Shown here: piece after piece, positions 30,788 through 46,076 of the stretch | How positions within the stretch are numbered: position 1 is the first letter of the stretch | Layout: every line of letters starts with the position of its first letter | Source: an uncultured Scytonema sp. | GTDB lineage: Bacteria; Cyanobacteriota; Cyanobacteriia; Cyanobacteriales; Nostocaceae | DNA: 64,000 nt | Assembly (NCBI GenBank): GCA_937873135.1 | Contig: CALMVQ010000362.1 | Coordinates: 1 to 64,000 of the forward strand | Direction of reading: 5' to 3' | Translations under genes and position numbers: made by a program | The notes under the pieces: model-generated | The model's database searches: none | What the model was told of the DNA's origin: nothing | The model's input: the letters and a program-made list of their open reading frames with translations, nothing else

Positions 30788-31234
30788 TCAATTTTTATTG
30801 GCAAAGGTACCGTATATGTCATGTTCTCTCTCAATGAAGATCATAGACAATGCCTGATAAGCTTCTGTCCAAGCTGCGATCACGGATTCAGTAGCTGCTT
30901 CCCCCAATACATCTTTAATCGCTTGCAGTAAGCACTCTCCTACAATCGGATATTCTTCTGGTAACACATTGGTTTTAACATGCCGATGGGCAATCCTTTC
31001 TACCATGACCTTCAGCGCTGGTAAATTGTCAATTTGAGTGGCATAGCTATAAACTGCTGTAGCCAACTTTGCAGGCTGAGAACCATTTGCTTGTGCAGAC
31101 ATATCAAACTGTTCTTTAACCTCTGGGTACTTATGAAACATAATTTCATACATTCGACTTGTGATTTGCTGACCGTGCTTTTTCAAGCTAGGTGCTGTAG
31201 ATTTAACAATATCTATCGTTTGTTGGCTAATCAT
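30788..31234 (-). CDS. Single-domain bacterial haemoglobin (Vitreoscilla-haemoglobin type)
   Basis: ORF 30788-31291, likely start at internal ATG: MISQQTIDIVKSTAPSLKKHGQQITSRMYEIMFHKYPEVKEQF...IAHRHVKTNV. Confidence 0.9.
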   Translation of the reverse strand: MISQQTIDIVKSTAPSLKKHGQQITSRMYEIMFHKYPEVKEQFDMSAQANGSQPAKLATAVYSYATQIDNLPALKVMVERIAHRHVKTNVLPEEYPIVGECLLQAIKDVLGEAATESVIAAWTEAYQALSMIFIEREHDIYGTFANKN

Positions 31235-31468
31235 AGTTTTTTTCACCCCAATTATTTTTGAATAATACCAATTTAATGCTTTGAACAACAAGTTACTATG
31301 AGCTAGCTCATACTTCCAAGGTAAAAAGAGCGTGATTCCGTTGGCGATACGGATGGCAGCCGTTGCCTTCTCTTCTCAGTTAATTCTTTGAATGCGACTG
31401 CAATAGCACTCGGGTCAACACCTTGGTTATGGTAAAGGTCCTTAGTATCAAAAATTGGTTGTATAAAG

Positions 31469-33491
31469 TCACCAAACTCCTTGGCTTTGCCGCTGTCTTA
31501 GTGCATCTAGAAACTGAATCACAAATCCCTCAAGCCTTCTATGTTTAATCGGCTCAATAAACTTATCAAACGGATTGAGTATTTTTATTTTTCCATCGGG
31601 TAGTGATTTATAATTTATTCCTTTTACTTGTTCTAGATATTTCAATGCCAACATCAAGCTAAAAGCATTAGGAATTTTACAGCTAGAACTCATGGATTCA
31701 TCTATACCCATAGCCAATAAAGAACGACGGAGAACGGTATCATCATCTCTGGAAACGTCGCTAAATCCAAAAGCATTCTCAGTGTTAGGTAAATTTCCTA
31801 ATGCTTCGCTTTCATTAATATTTTTACTGGTGCTGCATGTCAAGTATAATTTAGAGTTTTTCTCCAATATTTTTTCTAATTTTTGTTTGTATATTTCTTT
31901 ATCTGGTGTGTCTAAATCTTGAACTAAGCCGATAAATTGAGGTTGATATTTTTGGATTTCACCTACAACTTGCTTCAGGGTAGAAACAGTTAGTGAAGAT
32001 TTTTTATCTCCTTTTTTCTGCTCATGTTCGTATTTAATACCATCCGCATCAACTTCAACAACCACAATGCGATTGTCTTCTGGTTCATCGGGACGCGATC
32101 GCATCATCTGGTCATAGGCTTTTAACTCTAGAGGTTGTAACCAACCTAGATGACGCATCCCCAAAAAAGAAGAAGCTACCAGGAAAGTTGTCATCAGGGC
32201 AGTTTGAACTTTGGGAGTATCCCTGTGTCGCGATCCGAATTCATCACCCTTTGGAATTAAAAATTTGCCTAGAAATAGAATACCTGCTGCTGAGTTAATT
32301 TCTCGGAGAAGTAGCCAAATAACTGGTATACTACTAAGCCGCAAGTTTGATACAGGTGATTGGTGAGTATTACTGTGTGGAATTAAAGTTAGTGGTTTAC
32401 AAGCAGGATTTTGAAAAATTACAGGGAGCCAAGTAGCACAAGGAAAGTCACTCTCCATACCTTGTAAGCGTTCCCGTGCTTCTCGCACTGCTAGATACAA
32501 TGACTGACCACGACCAAAAGCCGTCAGAAAGTGCTTCAGAAATTCTTGGGCAACCAAATCTGGAATTGACTTTTGCATTACAATCATTTGGGGAATATTT
32601 ATTTCGCTTAATTCTGCGGCTAGTCCTAAACCATCGCAAGAGTTGAAAATTGCTAAGGAGAGTCCTTTTTCTATAGCTTTTGTGATAGCTAATTTTAAAT
32701 GTCCAATACTTAAGCTTTCGTTTTCATTAATTTTAATTGAACCTTTATTAGCATCATCCTGAGTGTGGCTATGTCCAGCAAAAAATAATATATCCCAGTT
32801 TTGTTCCCACAGCTTATCGTTGTAGTTGCTTCCGAGTCGTTTCTATTAAAAATTCAATCGTAGCATCTGGTAATTGCTCTTTTAATATTTTCTTGTCTTC
32901 TTCAATATCAATTTCCTTGCTGCCACCTCCCTTGCGATCGCCCAAAATCGCTAATATTTTTAGTTGACTTGTCGTCTCTTTATATACAACTTTCTTATAT
33001 TTGATTGGACTCAATGCTATTTCTGCGTTTTTCTAGCTTTGCGTTAATAATTTCCATGAATTCCAAGGCAAGTTTCGCAGCAAATTATTATCTGTTTGTA
33101 AGATAATTCTAATTTTTTCGTCAGGCTTGACTTCTGTTAAAAACTCTTCTTTAATATCCTTAAAAGGTTTTGATTCTAACCAATCATTTAAAGTTTCGCT
33201 TAACTTTTCTGCTGCTTGCTGACATTTATCTCTAGGATCGGGAATATAATCGCTACCTATTTGTTGTATCTCAGCAGATGCATGTTGTATGCGAGTGTTA
33301 TGGTTTGGAGCGCAATAAGAGTCATAGCTTTTTTTCCAGTGTTGATAGCTTTCCTCAACTTGGGGTGCGGGAGGTAGTGTACCGGAGACTCTTGTGCTAG
33401 CTTGTTCTCCTTCTTCTGCAATTTGCAATCTCACAGAAAATCCCTGCTTAAAATCGCCTTCCCCTAGCTCTAGGACAACTAACTTATTCAT
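31469..33491 (-). pseudogene. CHAT-CHASE2 fusion protein, broken
   Basis: Consecutive segments 33491-33033, 33014-32814 and 32820-31469 form one protein; in-frame TAG near 33033 (LLTQS*KNAEIALSPIKYKK) and frameshift near 32820 (RKQLQR* vs YNDKLWEQNWDILFFAGHS). Confidence 0.8.
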
Positions 33492-33849
33492 CGTTGTAAC
33501 TTTGGTGTAAATTGATTTGCCAGCACACTAGACTATCACTGAGCATCATCCCACATGAGAATTATGGCTGTAAAGCGATCTTAATCTTTTTGTAACAAAA
33601 ATATCTTGGCGAAGATATAGCTACTTGATTGATGGACAATTACTGAGTTGTTAATATTACCTTTAGAGAAAGGTAAAGCTAAAGTGCGATCGCATCTCAA
33701 ACGCTAGGGATTGAAGGTGCGATCGCGTAAGTAGGTACTATAATTTCAAGGTATGTAACGAAATGTAAATTTAGTTACAACTCTCTTCCCTTCTGCCTTC
33801 TGCCTTAGCTCAACGACAATTTTTCATGCCCACCTACTTATACGATAAA

Positions 33850-34840
33850 CTACTTGACAATAGCGCGATCGCGCTTATATACCCAAACTGCGCTCAATCC
33901 GAAAAATCCAAAAGCCCAAATTAACCACAGCAAATGTAAGATAACTCGTGGGCCAGAATTTGATTGCGCTATCGATAAAACCAATTCTTTATAGTGATAA
34001 AAAGGCGACAGGGAAACCAAGTCCTGCATTAACTCAGGCTTAAATGGTAATGGAACACCGCAAGCAAAGGGAATAATAAACAGAGATAAACTCAAAATTG
34101 AATCAGCACTTTTAGGATGGAGCAAATATCCGAGTTCCAAACCCAGAATTGCAAAAGGTGTAATCCCAATTATTAAACCGAGAAAAACAGATAGATATAA
34201 ACCCAAGCTTGCATGAATTCCTAATTGCCAATATCCCAAAATAAAAACTGAGAAGATAGCAACAGCGCAAACAATTAGTAAGCTAGTAATCTTGGCTGCT
34301 ATGTAAACGACAGGAGGTAGAGATGTGGTTTTTAATAACTTAAGCCATCCTTCCGAACGTTCGATCGCCACACGTTTACCCAGTCGTTCGATCACAATGG
34401 TAAACAAGATAATCCCACACAAATAAATTAACTGGTCTATGGTTACTTGTTCTGGTTGGAATCCTGGCTGTAATTTTAGTAATGGTACAAATCCGACAAT
34501 ACTTAACGTTCCTAGCAAAAATGTGGGTGTACGTCGCAATTGGGTTGTGGTAAGGGAACTCACTACAAATACTAAAAAAGCAGAAGTCATTTCCTCTCGT
34601 AACAAGGAAGAATGTAGCAACGATAGCAACTGCTACAATTCCAAGTAAAGCTGATTGACTGAAAGAAAATGGAAGTTTAGAAGATTTGACAGTTACAGAA
34701 ATTCTTTCCTCATCGTTACCTGTATTATTGAGTTGTTCATCGATAGTTTTAGAATTTTCGATTTCAGAATTAGACGAAGCTTGGGTTATATCTGAATATT
34801 TTTCCTGTTTTGATTTGTGAAATATGGGTTTCATTTGCAA
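33850..34840 (-). pseudogene. ABC-2-type permease, possibly frameshifted from an N-terminal segment
   Basis: ORF 33850-34629 is a multi-TM ABC-2 permease; ORF 34376-34840 supplies LPFSFSQSALLGIVAVAIVATFFLVTR that would continue into EEMTSAFLVFVVSSLTTTQLRRTPTFL near 34590. Confidence 0.55.
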
Positions 34841-34879
34841 AGTTACTCCTTAATTGAGAAGATTGAAGATTAGAAAGAA

Positions 34880-35329
34880 TTAAAACAATGTATTAACGGT
34901 TTTAGCAGCTAGCCATGCAAGCATCCCAAGTCCCGCAGCAATTGGTATGGGAACACCTAAAGCAGCTTCTTGATAACGCTCCTTTATGCCATTGTAGAGA
35001 AGACTTGCTAGCATGGGCCAAGTATCTACGATCGCATCGCATGTCTGCTCATCGAGATTACTTAATAACTCGTCAAAAATATGCTCAAAACTGGCAGCTA
35101 CCCAAGCAGAATTTTCGGTCCGAGGAATAATGTATACAACACAAGCAGTGTCTTCATCTATTGGGTATTCGCATTCAAGATAAGACTTGCTAGTCTCAAT
35201 CCCAATCTCATCTTCCCTAGAAGTTTTTCGTTGATCGATAAAAGATCGCATCGTAGTACCTTTGTATTTTATATGCGTCAATGGTAATTTTGATAAAGCG
35301 ATCGCACCTGTAATTTTTGGTGTGTGCAA
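34880..35329 (-). CDS. Hypothetical protein with C-terminal hydrophobic segment
   Basis: 149 aa (possible start at internal MRSFIDQRK); C-term VPIPIAAGLGMLAWLAAKTVNTLF. Confidence 0.5.
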   Translation of the reverse strand: MHTPKITGAIALSKLPLTHIKYKGTTMRSFIDQRKTSREDEIGIETSKSYLECEYPIDEDTACVVYIIPRTENSAWVAASFEHIFDELLSNLDEQTCDAIVDTWPMLASLLYNGIKERYQEAALGVPIPIAAGLGMLAWLAAKTVNTLF

Positions 35330-35362
35330 TGCGATCGCTTTTAGATATTGATATCGCTTGTC

Positions 35363-36292
35363 TTAATTGGCTTTTAGATATCGAAGGACGCTTGATTCTT
35401 TTCCGTTCCCAGTGTTGATTAATTTATAGAAATACATTGAAGAACCAGACCCTTCGTATGTAAGCGTAATCACTGAACCAACCTTTGCTCCAATTAAGTT
35501 GCTGTACCACACAAAGTATTGGTTGCCGTTTCTCGATTGAATCAATATTTTGTATGCAGCTTTCGCAGGGTCCCACCCGAATGCTTGAACCAAAGTAACA
35601 GGTGCTGATTCCACAGCATATGCAACCTCGGTAGTCAGTAGCAAAGAAGATGTTAATAGCATAATACGAATCATGGCAATGTAAATAAAAGTCTCCGAGG
35701 TTTCTGGTAGGCGTTCATAATCTTTGCTTAAGCGCCGACACCAATTCAGCCAACCAAAAGTTCGTTCTACAACCCAACGCTTAGGTAAATGGACAAAACC
35801 TTTTTTTTCCAAAGGTCGAAGAACAATTTCAACAATCCACCGAAACATATCCATTACCCATCGCATAAATTCTTCTCCCCGATATCCTCCATCCATCCAA
35901 ATGGTGTGCAGACGCTTTACCCGATTTCCCGTATCATGAACTCGTTTAAGGACTTGTCTAGCTCCTTGGCGCTCTGGAAGACTTGCAGATGTAACCAAAA
36001 CCCGTAAAACTAGTCCTAGTAAATCCACGGTTAAATGTCGTTTACGTCCGTGTATCTTTTTACCTACATCATAACCTACTTCTTGGGAAATCATCGTTGC
36101 TGTTTCTACTGATTGGCTATCTACTGCTGCCTCTGATGGGCTAGGTTCACGTCCGGCAGCTACTCTCACCCACTGGTAAAGTTTGTCGTGTACCTTTAAC
36201 AAGCGTGCCATCCTGACGCCATGCCCGGAAATAGCCATAGACTGTTGACCACGGTGGAAAATCTCCGGGCAATGCACGCCACGTACATCCAA
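35363..36292 (-). CDS. IS5 transposase ORF-B fused in frame to a small secreted protein
   Basis: Transposase C-term [15 protein letters not shown] runs directly into [54 protein letters not shown]... Confidence 0.7.
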
Positions 36293-36520
36293 GGCACAGT
36301 ACGTACAGAATCGCGTTCATTACAGCATACATTGCTGTAGTTCGAGGACGACCACCGGATTTTGCTTCGGGAAATAGGTCAGCGATTAATTCCCACTGTT
36401 CCCACGTTAGATCATTCGGGTATGATTTAGTCACTTGCGATACATCGTGCTGATGTCTACAAATTTCAGCATAAGCCTTGTGAGCTTTCTTACAATAGCC
36501 CCCCACTTTTAAAACATCCT
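35640..36520 (-). mobile_element. IS5-family element with two overlapping transposase frames
   Basis: ORF 36147-36506 (N-term) overlaps ORF 35363-36292 (DDE part: [42 protein letters not shown]) in another frame; similar ends agaagatgttaata / taagaggatgtttta. Confidence 0.75.
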
Positions 36521-36558
36521 CTTAGGAGCTGCAATCATGAATTCATGGAAAGCATCAC

Positions 36559-36915
36559 CTATTCAAACAGAATTTTGCGAATGCGGAATTTATTTTTCAT
36601 CGCAATGACAATTTTGCCATCCAATAAATCTTCTGAGTGTAATTTCAGCGCATCCATCAACAATGTTTTTCTCTGTTCACGAGGTAAATTCTCTAATCTT
36701 AAAATCCCGCAATGGCTTTTTCTCTGTTGCCAGATCATCTGTTCAAAATCATTATCTGTTGTCACGATAATTCTGCCTGATACTACTGCCCAGTCTAAAA
36801 TCTTCTCATCTGACATTTGAGGATCAGTATCCGTCACGTAAATCACATCATGACCCATTTGTTTTAACCAATCTCCCAGAGTCCGACTAGCATTAACATC
36901 AATTAAGAATTTCAT
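36559..36915 (-). CDS. DUF5615 PIN-like toxin
   Basis: 118 aa; MKFLIDVNASRTLGDWLKQMGHDVIYVTD...DEKILDWAVVSGRIIVTTDNDF. Confidence 0.9.
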   Translation of the reverse strand: MKFLIDVNASRTLGDWLKQMGHDVIYVTDTDPQMSDEKILDWAVVSGRIIVTTDNDFEQMIWQQRKSHCGILRLENLPREQRKTLLMDALKLHSEDLLDGKIVIAMKNKFRIRKILFE

Positions 36916-36922
36916 AAATAGT

Positions 36923-37174
36923 TTAAGACGCAGCCAATCTGTCTAAAACTTCTTCTTGAGAGACTAGTGAATAAGCATAGAACAAAGCTGCTTGTATATC
37001 TTCTGTTTCTAATTCCGGATAATCTTCTAAGATTTCTTGTTGACTAGCACCTTTTGCTAGTAGCTCTAAAATCATCGCTACTGATATTCTTAGACCTCGA
37101 ATGATTGGTTTTCCTCCTAAAACGTTTTTGTCAAATGTAATTCTTTCTAGTAAATTAATATGGTTCATACTCAT
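36923..37174 (-). CDS. DUF433 antitoxin
   Basis: 83 aa; ITFDKNVLGGKPIIRGLRISVAMILELLAKGASQQEILEDYPELETEDIQAALFYA; adjacent to DUF5615 toxin. Confidence 0.92.
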   Translation of the reverse strand: MSMNHINLLERITFDKNVLGGKPIIRGLRISVAMILELLAKGASQQEILEDYPELETEDIQAALFYAYSLVSQEEVLDRLAAS

Positions 37175-37595
37175 TAACTAACACAATAGTCAACATTCTA
37201 ACTTTAATTAAGAGGAAATAGGGAACTCTTAGCAGGGAGCCAAAACTTTGATAGTTTACGAAATGCCATAGAGCATGTACTACATTTAGTGTCCTAACCA
37301 ATCTGGCTACTGCTATAAAAGCAAACTACCACTTGAGAAAGCCTCATTGCGGCACAAATACCCCAATGCAGTTTGGAATGCTGCTGATTATTGAGATGAT
37401 GCTCCACTAACAGCAAATTACAAACCAAATCGCATTGAAATCTACTATGCCGATAATGCCGATACCCCCCACATCCAGAGTGAAAATGCTGAGGTGCAGT
37501 ACATCAACTTACCGCCAGACATGGGACAGTCCCAGGTGATTCAAGGAAAGGATTGATGGCCCTTCAGTAAATCTCAGCAGATCAACAAAGAGGTA

Positions 37596-38192
37596 TTACA
37601 CATTAGAGAGCTTAAAAACTCCGCCGTTGCTAACAGGAAGGTTGTAGGTAGTTTGGTCAAGTCCAACTCCGGATGGGTTATCATCTAAAGTTCTGAAGAA
37701 GGTTCCGCGCTGTTCAGGGTTAACTAACAGAGTTGCTGTGTCTGATCCTGAGAGGGAGGACAAGAAGATTTCGACATATCCACGAGCTTCAAAGTTTGCC
37801 TCTTTAAGCATCTCAGGTCGGTTAATAAAGTCAGGCTGCAACACAAGTAAGCTAGTAGCATTTTCAGGAATGGTGAAGGTCAGTCGCGCTTTGTTGTTCT
37901 GTGGAACAATTTCTGGAACCAGTGTTGCTTGAGGATTATTTGGGAAAATATTCTGCCCTGAAATATCAACAGCATCAATGAATTCATCAAATGATGTAGG
38001 ACGTTCTGAAGGGTCATCCAGCTCAGTAGGAAATTTGATTGTAAAGACTAGAGATACGGTGACAGGGAAGAAATTAACGTTGGCGATCGTCAGAAAGTAG
38101 CCTTGAATTGCTGTTCGGCTAATTGCATCAAACCCACCAGGAATTCTTGGAAATTGAGGCTTAAGCAGAACTTCAAAAGTAGAAACAAGCAT
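37596..38192 (-). CDS. Hypothetical protein
   Basis: 198 aa coherent ORF, beta-rich appearance. Confidence 0.55.
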   Translation of the reverse strand: MLVSTFEVLLKPQFPRIPGGFDAISRTAIQGYFLTIANVNFFPVTVSLVFTIKFPTELDDPSERPTSFDEFIDAVDISGQNIFPNNPQATLVPEIVPQNNKARLTFTIPENATSLLVLQPDFINRPEMLKEANFEARGYVEIFLSSLSGSDTATLLVNPEQRGTFFRTLDDNPSGVGLDQTTYNLPVSNGGVFKLSNV

Positions 38193-38349
38193 GTTTTTTG
38201 GTTCTCAATCGACTTATGAACTACTTTTAATATATGTAGACGCTATCAACTTATGCACTAACGGACTGAGTACGTGAACCCGTTAGACTTATAGTGCTCA
38301 AACGGGACGAGTCGCACTACCGAGTATGAAGTATAAATGCTTATTAAGC

Positions 38350-38459
38350 TTAGGTATTACTTATGGGAATTAAACTTTCACAGTCGATAGTTCCAACAGC
38401 AATCGGTTCCAAACAGTATAAAATACTACGTTTTACTATGTCCGGGTTGTACAAATCAT
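38350..38459 (-). pseudogene. tniQ/tnsD-like 5' fragment
   Basis: Minus-strand reading RSILYCLEPIAVGTIDCESLI resembles the TniQ N-terminus; start ATG overlaps the tnsC-like stop (ATGA), then frame slip and truncation. Confidence 0.55.
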
Positions 38460-39085
38460 AATGGGGATATGTTAATTTGTCTCTCTGCATTTTCTGTCCC
38501 TATTGAATCTCGTGTAGGCTTGCGAATTCCCACCGATTTCTTCCGTTTTTTTGGCTGAATGACTTGAGATTTTGAATCAGAATTTAAACTGTAATTTTGT
38601 TTGGATATAGGTGGACAACGTAAACCTAAGTCTTGATATAACTCTTCAATTTTGCCTTCAATTGAAGCATATCTAGCTTCTCCTTCTTTAATATGTTTGA
38701 GAATATTTCGACATTGACCAACTGATAAAGCTCTTTTTTCTAAATGCTTAAGCATCACAGTAGAAGCATTTTCGTTTAATGCCTCTGCCAGAGCATTTCT
38801 AGACCAATTTTTGAGGATACCAACACATCCCAAACTACGTGAATATAGGTATTCCCAATGTGATAAAAAGTCTGGAGGCTCTCTTGTTGGTATTTGACAC
38901 TGAAAATTCCAGATTATGCTCTGCCAAATTTCTCTATCTTCTGTAAATTCAGCATTATAACGGGGAAGATGAATATAAATACTACGTCTACTTAATTGGT
39001 CTCCTACATCATGAAGGGTTAGTAAATCATAAGTGCCAATTAATCCATGTAAAACTTGAGTAATATTGGCTAAAGATTTGAGTAA
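38456..39085 (-). pseudogene. tnsC/tniB-like AAA ATPase, 3' portion only
   Basis: In-frame reading LLKSLANITQVLHGLIGTYDLLTLHDVGDQLSRRSIYIHLPRYNAEF...PPDFLSHWEYLYSRSLGCVGILKNWSRNALAEAL...; Walker motifs absent. Confidence 0.75.
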
Positions 39086-39089
39086 TTAT

Positions 39090-39218
39090 TACACCTAGAT
39101 TACGCCCTGATGCTGAAACATACTGAATTTTAAAAGGAGGTGGTTGGTCGTAATATTCTAAAACATCAGATCTATGTTCCAACTGATATATAAAAGGAAG
39201 TTCTACTTTGTGAGATTC
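39090..39218 (-). pseudogene. tnsA-like internal fragment
   Basis: Minus-strand ESHKVELPFIYQLEHRSDVLEYYDQPPPFKIQYVSASGRNLGVI, a TnsA_N-type motif block; continues from N-terminal part at 44792-44616. Confidence 0.75.
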
Positions 39219-39282
39219 AAAAAAAGTAATACAAAAAATAAATAAACAACAACAACAACAGCGAAAGATTTTTGTTACGTTA

Positions 39283-40407
39283 TTGAAAAATAGAACAATA
39301 CATTTTAAAACTGTCTATAACGTAACCATGAATTTGACATTGCAAAAAGGCATTGATCCTTTTTCGGGAAAAACTATATGGGTGATGTTGGATGCAGATT
39401 ACCAAGTGGTGGAACCTATCCAACAGTACCTGACCTATTTATGCGGAACTAAATCTCCCAAAACGGTCGAAACATATGGATATGGATTGAAAGCATGGTG
39501 GGAATTCTTATCACTGAGGCAATTAGACTGGACAAAAGTTGAACTATCGGATCTCGAAGAGTTTGCCTATTGGTTGCGCGTTGGAGATTTCCATAAAATC
39601 GTCTCAATGCAACCCGTACAAGCTTTGCGTTCAGAGCGTACTATCAATCTCGTAATTACTGTGGTAAAAACTTTTTACGAGTATCACATTGCTGCTAAAA
39701 ATATCGATTACCAACAATTTGATAAAGTTTTGGCGACGACCAGTAGAACTCGTAGGGGTTTACTAGCTGGCATCGCCAAATCAAAGCCAACAAGACAAAA
39801 ACTTGTCAAACTTAAAGAACCAAAAAAATTCCCTGGATGCTTGAGTGACGAACAGATAGAGACGCTAGTTAAAGCCTGCCATCGCCTGAGAGATAAATTA
39901 ATCATCTTGATGCTGAATAGTACGGGAATGAGAAAAGGAGAATTGTTGGGGCTATGCCATCAAGATATAGGAGATTTTGACAACCACACGATTAGAGTAG
40001 TACAAAGACCGAATAACCCTAATGGTGCAAGAGCTAAAGGAGTTGAAAGGGTAATTCCTGTCCTGCAAGAATTACTGCAACTCTACAACGAGTACTTGAT
40101 TCACGAATACCCAGAAGTGGAATCAGACTATGTATTCGTCAATATTTGGTCAGGAGAAATCGGGATGCCAATGAACCCTACGGTTCTAAACACCATGTTT
40201 TCTCGATTGTCTTTAAAAACCGGAATAAAAGTTTACCCGCATCTGCTACGCCATTGCTATGCAACCCGTCTTCTAAAATCTGGTATGAGCGCAGATAGGG
40301 TCAGACATCTGTTAGGACACACTTCGGTTCAGACAACGTTAGATGTATATTCTCACGTGGTCAACGAGAAAGATTTATTAAAAGTAGTCAGACAAGAGGA
40401 GGAATAA
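39283..40407 (+). CDS. Tyrosine recombinase (TnpA-like)
   Basis: 374 aa; TGMRKGELLGL, HLLRHCYATRLLKSG, LLGHTSVQTTLDVYSH (R-HxxR-H-Y); start codon position uncertain, ATG at 39328 is an alternative. Confidence 0.93.
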   Translation: MKNRTIHFKTVYNVTMNLTLQKGIDPFSGKTIWVMLDADYQVVEPIQQYLTYLCGTKSPKTVETYGYGLKAWWEFLSLRQLDWTKVELSDLEEFAYWLRVGDFHKIVSMQPVQALRSERTINLVITVVKTFYEYHIAAKNIDYQQFDKVLATTSRTRRGLLAGIAKSKPTRQKLVKLKEPKKFPGCLSDEQIETLVKACHRLRDKLIILMLNSTGMRKGELLGLCHQDIGDFDNHTIRVVQRPNNPNGARAKGVERVIPVLQELLQLYNEYLIHEYPEVESDYVFVNIWSGEIGMPMNPTVLNTMFSRLSLKTGIKVYPHLLRHCYATRLLKSGMSADRVRHLLGHTSVQTTLDVYSHVVNEKDLLKVVRQEEE

Positions 40408-40409
40408 GA

Positions 40410-41873
40410 ATGGGTGAAATAAAAGAAATTAAAACTGCTCAAGCTATAATTCAAAATAAAGAATCCTTACATCTTTTAGCCAATCCTATATTCCAAAAGG
40501 ATACTTGGCATACTATAGATGATTTGGGATTATCTGTTAACCTACATAGAAGAAGATTAACTTTAGACTTTCAGGGAATTTTACAGGATTGGTTAAGAAT
40601 CTTAGTAAAAATTTATATATTAGTCAGAAGTCAATTAAATTTATCTTCTGAATATCTAGCCCATGAACTTAGTAATCTTAATAAGTTTTCTCGATTTTTA
40701 GAAATTAGCTCAATCAACGGTCATGAGCAAATCAATAATCAAGTGTTTCAGGATTTTGATGATTATCTTCATAAACTTAACTTAGCTAAAAGAACAATTT
40801 CTAAACATTACATAACCTTAAATAGTTTTTTTAATGTATGCCGATTAGAAGGTTGGTTAGATATTAATACTTATTGGTTTGAAGGAAGACGCTTACCTTA
40901 CAGATTTATCAGCAATGATGAAATTGACTATATTCCTGAAGAAGTCTGGAATCAATTAGAGCAAAATTTACATCATCTTCCTGAATCGATACAGAGAATG
41001 GTATTAATTATCCGAACTACAGGGATGAGAGTTGGAGAGCTTCTTAATCTGCCACTTGATTGTCTAAGAAAACGAGGTGGTCAATGGCGTTTACGTTTTA
41101 CTACTGAGAAGTATAAGATAGACGACGAGTTGCCTATCTTACCCGAATTAGTAGTGATTATCAAACAACAGCAAACATACATAAGAAAACATTTAAAAGA
41201 TAATTATGATAAATTATTTTGTAGTAGTCGTGGCAACAGGCACGGTTTTATGCCTACCTCAAGAGTCATGAATGTTAGTACCTTTAATTGTTATTTAAAT
41301 AAATTAGCTAGCTCATGTCATATTTGTACTCATTCGGGGGAAATCTGGCATTTTAAATCTCATCAATTCAGGAAGACTATCGGCACAGTTCTTACTAATG
41401 CGGGAGTGAGAGATTTAATTATCCAAAAATATCTAAGACATCGCTCCCCTGATATGCAACGTCATTATACTCACCTACTTAAACAAGTTTTAGAATCTGA
41501 ATATAAAGACTTAATGAGAGAAAAATCTTATGTTGATATTACTGGGAGAGTAGTTGCCAATTATAAACCTAGAAATCCGATGACCGAGCTAATGCGCCGC
41601 AAGATGTATCAGATTACAACACAGTATGGTGAGTGCCACCGCCCGACAATTAAAATACCCTGTCAAACAGTAAATGCTTGTTGGCAATGTGAACATTGGC
41701 GTACTTCAACTGATGATTTACCTTATCTTGAGGAAGATATAAAGCAAATACAAGAAGAACTTAATATTACTGAAAAGCTGGGTTTGGTTAGACAGCAACA
41801 GGGATTAGAGAATGATTTTCAAAATTTGAAAGTGAGGATAGAAGGATTAAGAGGAATAGATGAACAAAATTAA
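40410..41873 (+). CDS. Tyrosine recombinase (TnpB-like)
   Basis: 487 aa; TTGMRVGELLNL, SHQFRKTIGTVL, RHRSPDMQRHYTH; Cys-containing C-terminal region. Confidence 0.92.
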   Translation: MGEIKEIKTAQAIIQNKESLHLLANPIFQKDTWHTIDDLGLSVNLHRRRLTLDFQGILQDWLRILVKIYILVRSQLNLSSEYLAHELSNLNKFSRFLEISSINGHEQINNQVFQDFDDYLHKLNLAKRTISKHYITLNSFFNVCRLEGWLDINTYWFEGRRLPYRFISNDEIDYIPEEVWNQLEQNLHHLPESIQRMVLIIRTTGMRVGELLNLPLDCLRKRGGQWRLRFTTEKYKIDDELPILPELVVIIKQQQTYIRKHLKDNYDKLFCSSRGNRHGFMPTSRVMNVSTFNCYLNKLASSCHICTHSGEIWHFKSHQFRKTIGTVLTNAGVRDLIIQKYLRHRSPDMQRHYTHLLKQVLESEYKDLMREKSYVDITGRVVANYKPRNPMTELMRRKMYQITTQYGECHRPTIKIPCQTVNACWQCEHWRTSTDDLPYLEEDIKQIQEELNITEKLGLVRQQQGLENDFQNLKVRIEGLRGIDEQN

Positions 41874-43644
41874 TTGGAGGCAAGATTATCGGAGAGAGTT
41901 TGTATGTCCAGCTTGCTCACATAGCGGGATGAACTTAGCTGGAAAATACAAATACAAACAGCTTTTTCGTTGTCCAAACTGTGGTAAGCATGAAGGACAA
42001 TTTTATACCTTTAAATCTTATGAGTTTAGGTCAACAGTTAACTGGCGCAGAGATTACAAAGTTGGTGAATTTGCTTGCCCTAATCCTAATTGTGATGTTC
42101 AAAATGTAGTTCCAATTGGACGGAACTCTAACAAACAAGAGTTTATCTGCCAAGTTTGTAAAACTACAGCCTTTGAATCAATTGATCTTAGTAACAGAGT
42201 TGTTAGTCGCCTTAGTGGAAATCCAACTGCTATTAAACCGTTTAAATTTGAGGATGATGTCTGGGACTTAAGAGCAATTAATGTTAATGTTAGACCAGGA
42301 ATCGCTCAGTATAGCATTACCTTTAGTAAAGTCAAGCAAAGTTGGTTAAAAAATTTAGTAAAACAATATATTTATGATTTATGTAAAGCCGAAAAATCTT
42401 GTTCGATGGTCAATCAACGTTTACTGGGATTACGTTATTTCTCTCATTATCTTGATGAGAAAAATATTAACGCTCTTGACAAAATAAATCGAGATATTAT
42501 CCATGATTTCCTCAATTGGTTATCTGGTCAAAAAGTAGGAAGAACTGCTTTGAGAGATCGGCTAGGTGATTTGAGAAGTTTTTTCAATTTTGGCTGGGTC
42601 AAAGGACTCTTTAATGTCAATCAAGATATTATCCGTGATGAAGATTTTCCCAAAGTTCATAAAAAAAATATAGAATGTATTTGTCTAAGTGTTCGAGAAA
42701 AAATCGAGCAGAACTTACATTTACTTCCAGAATCCATTGCTCGAATGTGGATTGTAGCTTTCTTTACTGCCATGCGTCCTAATGAATTAGCCTTGTTGAA
42801 AAAAGATTGTTTAATTCAAGAAGGCGAACAATGGAAAATTATTTGGCAACGACAAAAAACAAATGATTGGCATGAAGTTCCCGTTACTAGAACTATTGCG
42901 AAAATCGTTAGAGAACAGTTTGAATATATTCAACAGCTTTTTGGAGAACAATGGGATTATCTTTTCTGCCATTATCAAGGAATATCTCAAACAGATCCAT
43001 CACATCCAAAACTGAAACCTGTCAAAAAAATCATTCCCGTTGATAGCCCTTTATACAAAGCTATTAATTGTTTGATAAAGCATCTCGATATTCGAGATGA
43101 AAATGACTTCTTAGCTAAATTTAGCCCTAAATTACTACGGACTACTCGATTAACCCAACTTTTTGAACAAGGACATGACCTAGCTGTCGTGAGTTCCTGG
43201 GCTGGACATAAACATTTAGCTACCACCAGTACTTACTACACTCATGTTAGTTGCTCCCTGATAGAAAAAGAAGCAGGACACATACAGAAAGCTTTATTCA
43301 ACGTTGATGGTAAACCTCTTTACTACGAATCCATGCCTAAAAGCTTTTGGGAAAATCCTACCGCCCATCAATTAGAACTTGCTGGTAATCATATCAACAC
43401 GCCTATCTATGGATATTGCGGCTTACCCTTGAACCAACGTTGTGACAAATTTAGAGCCTGCTATACCTGCTCTCACTTTGTAGCTACACCCGAAAAACTG
43501 TCCCAGTACATTCAAGTCCGCAATGAACTTAGAGCTAAAGAAACTAGAGCTTTTACTAATGGGCATGACGTGCTTGTCGAACAATTCGGACAACAAGCTG
43601 ACCTGCTAGACAAGATTATCGTATCATTACAGGAGGTGGCATAA
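41860..43644 (+). CDS. Third tyrosine recombinase with N-terminal zinc-ribbon-like repeats
   Basis: 594 aa; CPACSHSG...CPNCGKHEG...CPNPNCD...CQVCK; catalytic region FTAMRPNELALLKKD, KLLRTTRLTQLF, WAGHKHLATTSTYYTHV. Confidence 0.9.
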   Translation: MNKINWRQDYRREFVCPACSHSGMNLAGKYKYKQLFRCPNCGKHEGQFYTFKSYEFRSTVNWRRDYKVGEFACPNPNCDVQNVVPIGRNSNKQEFICQVCKTTAFESIDLSNRVVSRLSGNPTAIKPFKFEDDVWDLRAINVNVRPGIAQYSITFSKVKQSWLKNLVKQYIYDLCKAEKSCSMVNQRLLGLRYFSHYLDEKNINALDKINRDIIHDFLNWLSGQKVGRTALRDRLGDLRSFFNFGWVKGLFNVNQDIIRDEDFPKVHKKNIECICLSVREKIEQNLHLLPESIARMWIVAFFTAMRPNELALLKKDCLIQEGEQWKIIWQRQKTNDWHEVPVTRTIAKIVREQFEYIQQLFGEQWDYLFCHYQGISQTDPSHPKLKPVKKIIPVDSPLYKAINCLIKHLDIRDENDFLAKFSPKLLRTTRLTQLFEQGHDLAVVSSWAGHKHLATTSTYYTHVSCSLIEKEAGHIQKALFNVDGKPLYYESMPKSFWENPTAHQLELAGNHINTPIYGYCGLPLNQRCDKFRACYTCSHFVATPEKLSQYIQVRNELRAKETRAFTNGHDVLVEQFGQQADLLDKIIVSLQEVA

Positions 43645-43646
43645 CG

Positions 43647-44540
43647 ATGGGCACAGAACAAACTAGGGAAGCTCGGATTAAAACCCTAACACAAACTCAG
43701 TTAGTCCGAAAACTTGAAACCCTAGAAAAAGTTAACTTTGCTATTGAGCGACTCCAAAAACTAGGGGTTAAGGTTAACTTTCGCACTGTTGCTAGAGAGG
43801 CGTCAGTTAGCGTTCAATACCTTTATAAATATTCAGATCTCAAAGAGCGTATCCACAACATTAGAACGCAGCAAACTCAAATATCATCTGTTCCTGTCAA
43901 TCAGCCACATGTGACAGCTAAAGCTCATTCTCAGTTTGTTAGCCGTCTCAAACAGAGAATCCAACAATTAGAACTTGAGAATAATGAACTTAAGCGAAAA
44001 AATGAAGCTCTCGCTGGGCAAGTTTATCGGGTACATTCTTTGCAAGAGCAAGTCGAGCGACAAAAGGATATGATTGGCTCTCTCGAATCTCGTTTGAAAC
44101 AGACAATAGAAGCTTTTCAACAATCTAAAGTTGTTCCTCTTACTAGTCCGTCAAAATCTCAGATTAGTGAGCAAGTATTGATTCAATTGGAAGCGGTCGG
44201 AATTCGGTTAAATTCCACATTAAGCAAGATAATTAAGTCGTCTTCAGAAGAAAAAGTTCTAGATGCCATTAATGCTTACAAAGAAGCTCTCGCCACAGGT
44301 AATATCGAACGACCTGGAGGATGGTTGAAAAAAGCGATACAGTTCGGTTGGAAGCCGAATGACTCGGTGCAAGCTAAATCTGAATTAGAAATTTTTAATC
44401 AATGGTTTCCATTAGCTAGTAATAAAGGATTAGTCATGGCCAGTCAACAAACCCAAAATGGTATTGTAGTGTTTACCAATCATGGCGATTGGATATCATT
44501 TGTAGAAATGTTATCCAAATATCCGTTAGAAACTCTCTAA
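43647..44540 (+). CDS. DUF6262 / TnpC-like coiled-coil transposition protein
   Basis: 297 aa; N-term helical region FRTVAREASVSVQYLYKYSDLKERI then long coiled coil; last gene of recombinase operon. Confidence 0.75.
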   Translation: MGTEQTREARIKTLTQTQLVRKLETLEKVNFAIERLQKLGVKVNFRTVAREASVSVQYLYKYSDLKERIHNIRTQQTQISSVPVNQPHVTAKAHSQFVSRLKQRIQQLELENNELKRKNEALAGQVYRVHSLQEQVERQKDMIGSLESRLKQTIEAFQQSKVVPLTSPSKSQISEQVLIQLEAVGIRLNSTLSKIIKSSSEEKVLDAINAYKEALATGNIERPGGWLKKAIQFGWKPNDSVQAKSELEIFNQWFPLASNKGLVMASQQTQNGIVVFTNHGDWISFVEMLSKYPLETL

Positions 44541-44615
44541 ATTCTCGTTGTAGAAAACGTAAACAATGAAAAAAGCTTTGCTCAGTATACGTTGTAAGCG
44601 TTATGTATTACATAA

Positions 44616-44792
44616 CTCGAACTGAATAGTTTGACCCATTTTTTCACTACAATAATTCCCACAAACATTGCCATAATTCCCTTGTACTCGGCGAGATGGT
44701 GGTACTTGGCGAATCTGAGCTATAAGAGAGCGGGTACTTTGGGCAAGTCTTTTTTGACTGCACCATTGGTCAAACTCTTCTTCTGTGAGCAT
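44616..44792 (-). pseudogene. tnsA-like 5' fragment
   Basis: MLTEEEFDQWCSQKRLAQSTRSLIAQIRQVPPSRRVQGNYGNVCGNYCSEKMGQTIQFE then element-derived LCNT*. Confidence 0.75.
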
Positions 44793-44836: not shown

Positions 44837-44962
44837 TGTCCATTTTCTTCTGACATTTTGGGATTATGTCCATTTTCTTCTGACAAAATTCCGCTCGCTG
44901 TATTAATTCCTTAACGAAGTTATAGGTCTTTCAGCTTACGATCTGTCCAATTTCTTCTGACA
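44837..44962. repeat. Tn7-like transposon end: three 19-bp repeats
   Basis: TGTCCATTTTCTTCTGACA at 44837-44855 and 44867-44885, TGTCCAATTTCTTCTGACA at 44944-44962; outermost copy ends ...TGACA (5'-TGTCA on minus). Confidence 0.8.
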
Positions 44963-45023
44963 AACCTGGCCAAAATCTTCTTCAAGTCACAGGCACAAAG
45001 GAGAGATAAAACTCCGCCCCTAT

Positions 45024-46076
45024 TCACTCTCCCCAGCGATGCCAGGAGCGAAAATTTGCGCCGGCACTTACAGCCAAGCCAATTTGGTGCTGTGACGATA
45101 GCTCATCATGCCCACCTTCGTTAGCGCCAATATAGTACATACGAAAACTACCATCGTTCGTTGGCACTACACAAGGTGTACCGATTGCTCGTGCATCCCA
45201 ACGACCAGAACCCTTTTCGGCATGGGAAAACACGGAGCCTCCTGGTTGGTCGCCTTGATCTTTTTGCCAATGAATACCGTCGTCAGAAATGGCTAGACCA
45301 ATGGAGTGATAACCACTGTTGTTGACACCTTCGTAAAACATGACGTATTGTCCATTTATTTTGAGGACATTGCGCGTACCAATGCCTCTTTCATCAAAAC
45401 TTCCAGACTCACCAGATCCCAAAATCTGACCGACTTTCTCCCAACGTAAACCATCTGTAGATACAGCTAAACCTACTAAGAATCCTTTGTCCAGGTTTAA
45501 GGTGTGGTAGTACAATTTCCAAGTTCCATCATCATCAGGTAGTACTTGGGGCCACGCACAGAACAATGCATCAAACTCCCCCGCTTTACCCAAATCTAGC
45601 AAAGCTCCTTGATAAGTACCTTCTATCCGTACCCAATTCATACCATCACGCGAAATGGCACAACCAGGGCGCATATTTAACCCTTTAGCTTTAGACTTTC
45701 CCAAATCAACAACCGTAGCGTCTCCGCCGAAGTACCACATCCAATAAAGATTATTGTGAAAGAATACATTGCTCACACCAACATGGGCTGAATCAAACCG
45801 ACTAGGATCTGGGTGAGGTTCAAAGACAGCGCCCATAGTTAATGGTCCTTGTACGCGTTGCCAACGAATGCCGTCAGTAGAAATTGCTAAACCACAGCGA
45901 CCAGTAGGCAAATTAATTTGTCTATCAAAGGAGGCATCCCGACCGTAGTACCACATTTTCCAAGTTCCATCAGCACAATGCAAGACATGTGGCGAAGAAA
46001 CCCGTTCAGAGTCCCACCACCCGAATGGTCCTGGTGTCAAGACGAGTCCTGGTTGATTGATGTGCTCGTGACTCAT
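45024..46076 (-). CDS. Glycoside-hydrolase-like five-bladed beta-propeller protein (GH43/GH32 superfamily)
   Basis: 350 aa; repeated WKMWYYG, LYWMWYFGGD, WKLYYHT, YVMFYEG, FRMYYIGAN and DG(I/L)RW motifs. Confidence 0.8.
   Translation of the reverse strand: MSHEHINQPGLVLTPGPFGWWDSERVSSPHVLHCADGTWKMWYYGRDASFDRQINLPTGRCGLAISTDGIRWQRVQGPLTMGAVFEPHPDPSRFDSAHVGVSNVFFHNNLYWMWYFGGDATVVDLGKSKAKGLNMRPGCAISRDGMNWVRIEGTYQGALLDLGKAGEFDALFCAWPQVLPDDDGTWKLYYHTLNLDKGFLVGLAVSTDGLRWEKVGQILGSGESGSFDERGIGTRNVLKINGQYVMFYEGVNNSGYHSIGLAISDDGIHWQKDQGDQPGGSVFSHAEKGSGRWDARAIGTPCVVPTNDGSFRMYYIGANEGGHDELSSQHQIGLAVSAGANFRSWHRWGE

Follow-up and report, generated by a model that had tools for sequence, protein, structure and literature searches.

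What are the three 19-bp repeats that lie beside an interrupted tnsA gene in this Scytonema contig, and what element did they once serve? The window, by which we mean the whole stretch of 64,000 nucleotides that was analysed, belongs to a genome of 9.6 Mb available as a draft of 383 contigs. The comparisons described below make it very probable that the repeats are TnsB recognition sites 2 to 4 in the right end, with four sites in all, of a Tn7-like transposon, and that this element is dead, having been broken by a recombinase insertion, with relatives that occur as gene-less miniature copies (MITEs).

The repeats and the right-end array

Exact 19-bp copies of TGTCCATTTTCTTCTGACA were found on the plus strand at 44837-44855 and 44867-44885, and one of TGTCCAATTTCTTCTGACA at 44944-44962, in agreement with the coordinates given by the first-pass annotation. 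As it had also proposed, they lie upstream of the tnsA start, about 45-170 bp from position 44792. No further match with three mismatches or fewer occurs in the window, and dinucleotide shuffles gave a mean of 0.06 repeat matches, with none of 100 shuffles reaching three. A genome-wide motif search, proposed as a check, found exact copies only at these three places, and matches with 2-3 mismatches were no more numerous than those to a reversed-pattern control. The alternative of a dispersed repeat unrelated to tns genes therefore fails, since the motif is not dispersed in its own genome; in other genomes it does stand away from tns genes, but there it belongs to the termini of miniature forms of this element. 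A pattern scan of public genome contigs returned ten single matches, in unrelated taxa. The reading of the repeats as a surviving Tn7-like end is borne out by three other genomes (G089, G036 and G205), in which the same array adjoins tnsAB, and their putative role as TnsB-type sites is consistent with their position, conservation and family.

The array contains four sites, all annotated on the minus strand. The repeat at 44944 had been taken for the outermost one; that place belongs to a fourth, divergent copy, the terminal TnsB-type site at 44965-44991. This site reads TGTGACTTGAAGAAGATTTTGGCCAGG inward, has its right edge at 44991, and shares its terminus with G036, Nostoc sp. C057 and 23 MITEs. 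The second site (TTTGTCAGAAGAAATTGGACA, 44944-44964), the third (44867-44887) and the fourth, innermost one (44837-44857) contain the 44944-44962, 44867-44885 and 44837-44855 repeats, and their mean column conservation in relatives is 94%, 97% and 92%, respectively. When two intact elements were aligned with 23 miniature copies, conservation reached 92-97% in the columns of the sites, compared with 64% just inside the array. This supports the assignment of the three repeats as the inner three of four predicted TnsB-type sites at the tnsA-side end.

The window holds only the right array. In the relatives, the left end has a terminal site and, for the most part, two inner sites; arrays of four right and three left sites are found in the intact elements and in most MITEs. 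As the sequences show, the inner sites of the left end (TTGGAAGGTAAAGTTGGACA) share their strand with those of the right end, and inversion is confined to the terminal sites. Between sites 2 and 3, a non-repeat stretch at 44900-44926 (right-end positions 66-92, CTTATAACTTCGTTAAGG...) is about 90% conserved in elements and MITEs, and is possibly a host-factor site or a promoter.

Element edge and empty sites

In G089, all five copies agree base for base as far as ...CTTCTTCAAGTCACA and diverge from the very next position. The element terminus is ...CAAGTCACA, which in the window ends at 44991. The edge is placed at this position because the G089 copies diverge after ...CAAGTCACA and because homology to a same-genus genome resumes at 44996. 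The transposon/chromosome boundary predicted at about 44962 was thus 29 bp too far in. In published Tn7-like predictions, the outermost recognisable site lies a median of 12 bp off the true boundary (PMC8649781). Going by the 5-bp duplications of intact relatives and MITEs, the expected slot of the target duplication is GGCAC at 44992-44996; its partner copy in the window cannot be recognised, the other end having been lost.

Empty sites were compared in two same-genus genomes, G085 and G047, which lack the insert, so that 44962 does not lie within a conserved locus, an outcome that would have told against the first-pass annotation. Homology of G085 to the window begins at 44996 and runs outward, and in neither genome does the insert follow the globin-side flank, which extends to about 31332-31343. 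The native right-flank gene (45024-46076, minus strand), which encodes a glycosidase/phosphorylase-like protein of 350 aa, is 97% identical in both; the left-flank gene (30788-31291, minus strand), which encodes a globin-like protein of 167 aa, is its close neighbour in G085. These observations support the sequence outside 44991 as native chromosome. In the transposon-free genome G085, an insertion of about 140 bp flanked by repeated CACTCCC lies beside the native flank (L103, 717-900).

No partner left end of subfamily 1 or 2 was found in the window, and neither a second copy nor a MITE of the element in its own genome; as had been suggested, only one end survives.

Intact relatives

A family search with the 59-aa TnsA piece identified intact relatives in G089 (five copies, 95% identity) and G036 (80%), which define subfamily 1. 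In these elements, which are about 4.95 kb long, the only encoded proteins are TnsAB (a fusion, about 850 aa), TnsC (383 aa) and TniQ (259 aa). Both thus carry adjacent genes for a DDE-type TnsB, TnsC and a TnsD/TniQ protein, as expected of a Tn7-like element; the window retains only tnsA and tnsC pieces, tnsB and tniQ being absent. The G036 element (L056, 805 to 5758) has 29-bp inverted termini and a TCAAG target duplication, and lies inside a gene that is photolyase-like, as named from its reading frames. A copy of intact length on plasmid p057_H of Nostoc sp. C057 is flanked by a CGATC duplication, and 5-bp target duplications of this kind also surround 16 of 23 MITEs.

Among solved systems, the G089 proteins match those of the type I-B2 CRISPR-associated transposon (CAST), with E values of 3e-204 for TnsAB, 3e-98 for TnsC and 8e-27 for TniQ. 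Neither Cas effector genes nor a CRISPR array accompany them in the intact 4.95-kb relatives. What is delimited here is the edge of a minimal Tn7-like element with close kinship to the transposases of CRISPR-associated transposons. In an intact element, by analogy with the family, the TnsAB fusion would be expected to bind the arrays at both ends, with TnsB cutting and joining the 3' strands and TnsA cutting the 5' strands; insertion would then leave a 5-bp duplication, such as the relatives display.

The tnsA and tnsC remains and the recombinase insertion

The minus-strand frame from 44792 begins MLTEEEFDQW and is a TnsA N-terminus; over 59 aa it shares 95% identity with TnsAB fusions of intact elements. 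This subfamily 1 piece (codons 1-59, 44616-44792, minus strand; 95% to the TnsAB of G089 and 80% to that of G036) breaks off at codon 59 (...TIQFE), cut at a Phe-Glu codon pair. The glutamate of this pair is, we presume, probably the catalytic glutamate of TnsA, as in Tn7.

At these codons a Tn554-like element of 5.4 kb has entered tnsA (39222-44615, plus strand), as delimited by the junction sequences, with TTYGAR-type cores at 39216-39221 and 44616-44621. It encodes three tyrosine recombinases with Pfam Phage_integrase matches, of 374 aa (39283-40407, 4e-31), 487 aa (40410-41873, 3e-18) and 594 aa (41860-43644, 6e-15), followed by a DUF6262 protein of 297 aa (43647-44540, 7e-10), all on the plus strand. 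Three Phage_integrase proteins together with DUF6262 are the gene content of a Tn554-like element, in which the DUF6262 protein presumably occupies the position of Tn554 tnpC. With TTCGAG and TTTGAA as its junction cores, the insertion could fit the 6-bp core exchange of Tn554. The target of Tn554 is radC; here it is the conserved Phe-Glu codon pair of tnsA. An independent relative in G037 (L107, G037:C205, 10816 onward), with a 72% identical TnpA, occupies the same codon of another tnsA. An element that targets the Phe-Glu codons of tnsA would be a transposon of transposons. G037 also has a second such element, in tnsB, which includes a DnaB-like helicase gene. As for tnsA being a general target of recombinase elements, 29 TnpA loci were examined; only that of G037 (72% identical) clearly shares this target and the others lie elsewhere, so the idea was rejected.

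On the far side of the insertion tnsA resumes with Glu-Ser-His at the insertion codon (39080-39221, minus strand). This continuation belongs to subfamily 2 (93% identity to G019, 90% to G118, 57% to subfamily 1) and is fused, through a deletion, to the C-terminal part of tnsC (38456-39079, minus strand), which is likewise of subfamily 2, has about 86% protein identity to G118, G139 and G018, runs contiguously with G118 DNA, and is about 41% identical to the tnsC of G089. Subfamily 2 DNA extends to 38369, the deletion having removed the entire tnsB. The own genome has no other tnsC (E 1e-25) and no intact tnsAB. The window element, which has lost tnsB, tniQ and its left end, is a dead relic. 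L168 (G019:C423) is a subfamily 2 Tn7-like relic with internal deletions of its own across tnsAB and tnsC.

Origin of the chimeric locus

Compared with subfamily 1, tnsA shows 95% identity ahead of the insertion but 57% beyond it; compared with subfamily 2 (the G019/G118 type), the values are 51-54% and 90-93%, respectively. Judged by these identities, the locus is a chimera of two Tn7-like subfamilies, since tnsA and tnsC on the far side of the insertion are from a different one. The most economical history that we infer is recombination between two copies of the inserted element: two recombinase-interrupted Tn7-like elements would have occupied the same intergenic region, and loss of the DNA between the two recombinase copies would have joined their halves.

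Two other origins were weighed. The draft state of the assembly (383 contigs) and the switch of subfamily exactly at the inserted element would fit a misassembly uniting two loci across a repeated recombinase element. This is quite unlikely, because the inserted element is single copy in its own genome, the remainder of tnsA1, tnsB, tnsC1 and the N-terminus of tnsA2 are found nowhere in the assembly, and both flanks come from one native intergenic region in relatives. The chimera might instead be older than the recombinase element, if recombination in the conserved QFESH region came first; this region is well conserved between the subfamilies, which makes homologous exchange possible. We regard this order of events as unlikely, though with a better claim than misassembly: the coincidence of switch point and insertion codon would have to be chance, and the relatives compared include no insertion-free chimera. 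Recombination between two inserted copies is preferred, and on that reading the locus illustrates how recombinase insertions can shuffle Tn7-like elements.

About 7 kb (31343-38369) separate the element from the globin side, between genes that are close in the genus. To judge from the sequences, this stretch contains remnants: of a CHASE2-type protein, of an ABC permease, of an IS5-like transposase (at 35363-36506) and of a pair resembling DUF5615/DUF433 (at 36559-37174). Beyond it, 126 bp at 38370-38495 are identical to contig C233 of the own genome, and 98 bp at 38488-38584, overlapping these by 8 bp, are 97% like contig C163 of the own genome.

Gene-less miniature copies

With the transposon end of the window as DNA query, many matches were seen to stop near base 160, with an inverted terminus within about 400 bp. 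Among 23 sampled gene-less elements of about 400 bp in other Nostocaceae, 22 measure 376-424 bp and one, of 295 bp, reaches a contig end; 16 have perfect 5-bp duplications. They carry no tns gene and have the same first ~160 bp as the transposon end in the window. One is in the same-genus G047, and several are on named Nostoc and Tolypothrix plasmids. These miniature relatives are short and non-coding, with both ends and duplications, features that apply to them and not to the transposon end in the window; by this organisation, the ~400-bp elements are Tn7-like MITEs. A common target sequence around them was rejected, only a weak A/T preference being seen within the duplication. They are presumably mobilised in trans by the intact relatives.

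Both ends of a minimal Tn7-like element thus occur naturally as gene-less elements of about 400 bp, and in these natural mini-elements it is evolution, not deletion, that defines the minimal ends. In the open-access papers searched, Tn7-derived MITEs were not found described.

A shared GA-to-TC change in the sites

The site-variant scan scored right-end sites, whereas left-end sites were read from the alignment. After TTTG/AATG, the dinucleotide is GA in 68 scored right-end sites, TC in 5, GG in 4, and AA and TT in 1 each. Three of the five TC sites are the window's inner sites, and six of the differences of the window's four sites from the majority are this change of GA to TC, two per inner site. 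TC also occurs at single left-end sites of a few MITEs. This shared change in sequence hints at a possible shift in end specificity, for which selection by a changed TnsB and copying between sites are candidate causes, and it provides a testable case of co-evolution between transposase and site. We tentatively propose, with more doubt than confidence, a two-layer system in Nostocaceae, in which minimal TnsAB-TnsC-TniQ elements mobilise Tn7-like MITEs in trans and end sites shift their specificity, end lineages parting from the original transposase.

Rival readings of the repeats

Lying about 45-170 bp before the start of tnsA, the repeats might also be taken for regulatory operators through which the gene is autoregulated. 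That they are operators instead of end sites is very improbable, since the repeats and the terminal site are kept in MITEs without any gene and arrays stand at both ends of intact elements; beside end recognition they may serve an additional regulatory role. Still harder to credit is the idea that a MITE, and not a full element, left the end seen in the window. MITEs do share the first ~160 bp, and one is found in the same genus (G047), but homology to intact elements continues unbroken for 375 bp (91%), past the beginning of tnsA and as far as codon 59, into a part that MITEs lack. The end of a full Tn7-like element remains our reading. A relic end of this kind is ordinary; what lends it interest is the family of MITEs, the recombinase element that targets tnsA and the change shared by the sites.

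Comparison with known systems

Like Tn7 and Tn7-like elements, the family has TnsA, a DDE-type TnsB, TnsC and TniQ-family proteins, TGT ends and a 5-bp duplication. The relatives have four sites on the tnsA side and three on the other, as reported for the right and left ends of Tn7 (PMC8649781). They differ from Tn7 in the fusion of TnsA and TnsB, in their length of about 4.95 kb without cargo, TnsD or TnsE, in the same strand orientation of the inner sites of both ends, and in occurring as MITEs.

By sequence, the solved TnsAB, TnsC and TniQ nearest to the G089 proteins are those of the type I-B2 CAST (PDB 9bw1, 8fcu), to which the I-D CAST is related (PMC10293859). Unlike CASTs, the 4.95-kb elements are without Cascade genes, CRISPR array and TnsD, and have one short TniQ only.

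The miniature copies resemble prokaryotic MITEs, such as the cyanobacterial Nezha (PMC10969869), in being short and gene-less, with inverted termini, target duplications and autonomous relatives alongside. Their ends, however, are Tn7-type multi-site arrays and not simple IS-type inverted repeats, and a review of prokaryotic MITEs (PMC10969869) treats Tn7 solely as a site-specific transposon, without naming it as an origin of such elements.

The insertion in tnsA shares with Tn554 and recombinase-in-trio elements the consecutive tyrosine recombinases, the DUF6262 protein, and an insertion point at one set codon of a conserved gene, with no long duplication produced. It is distinguished from Tn554 by its three recombinases of 374, 487 and 594 aa and by its target, which is tnsA (in G037 also tnsB) and not radC.
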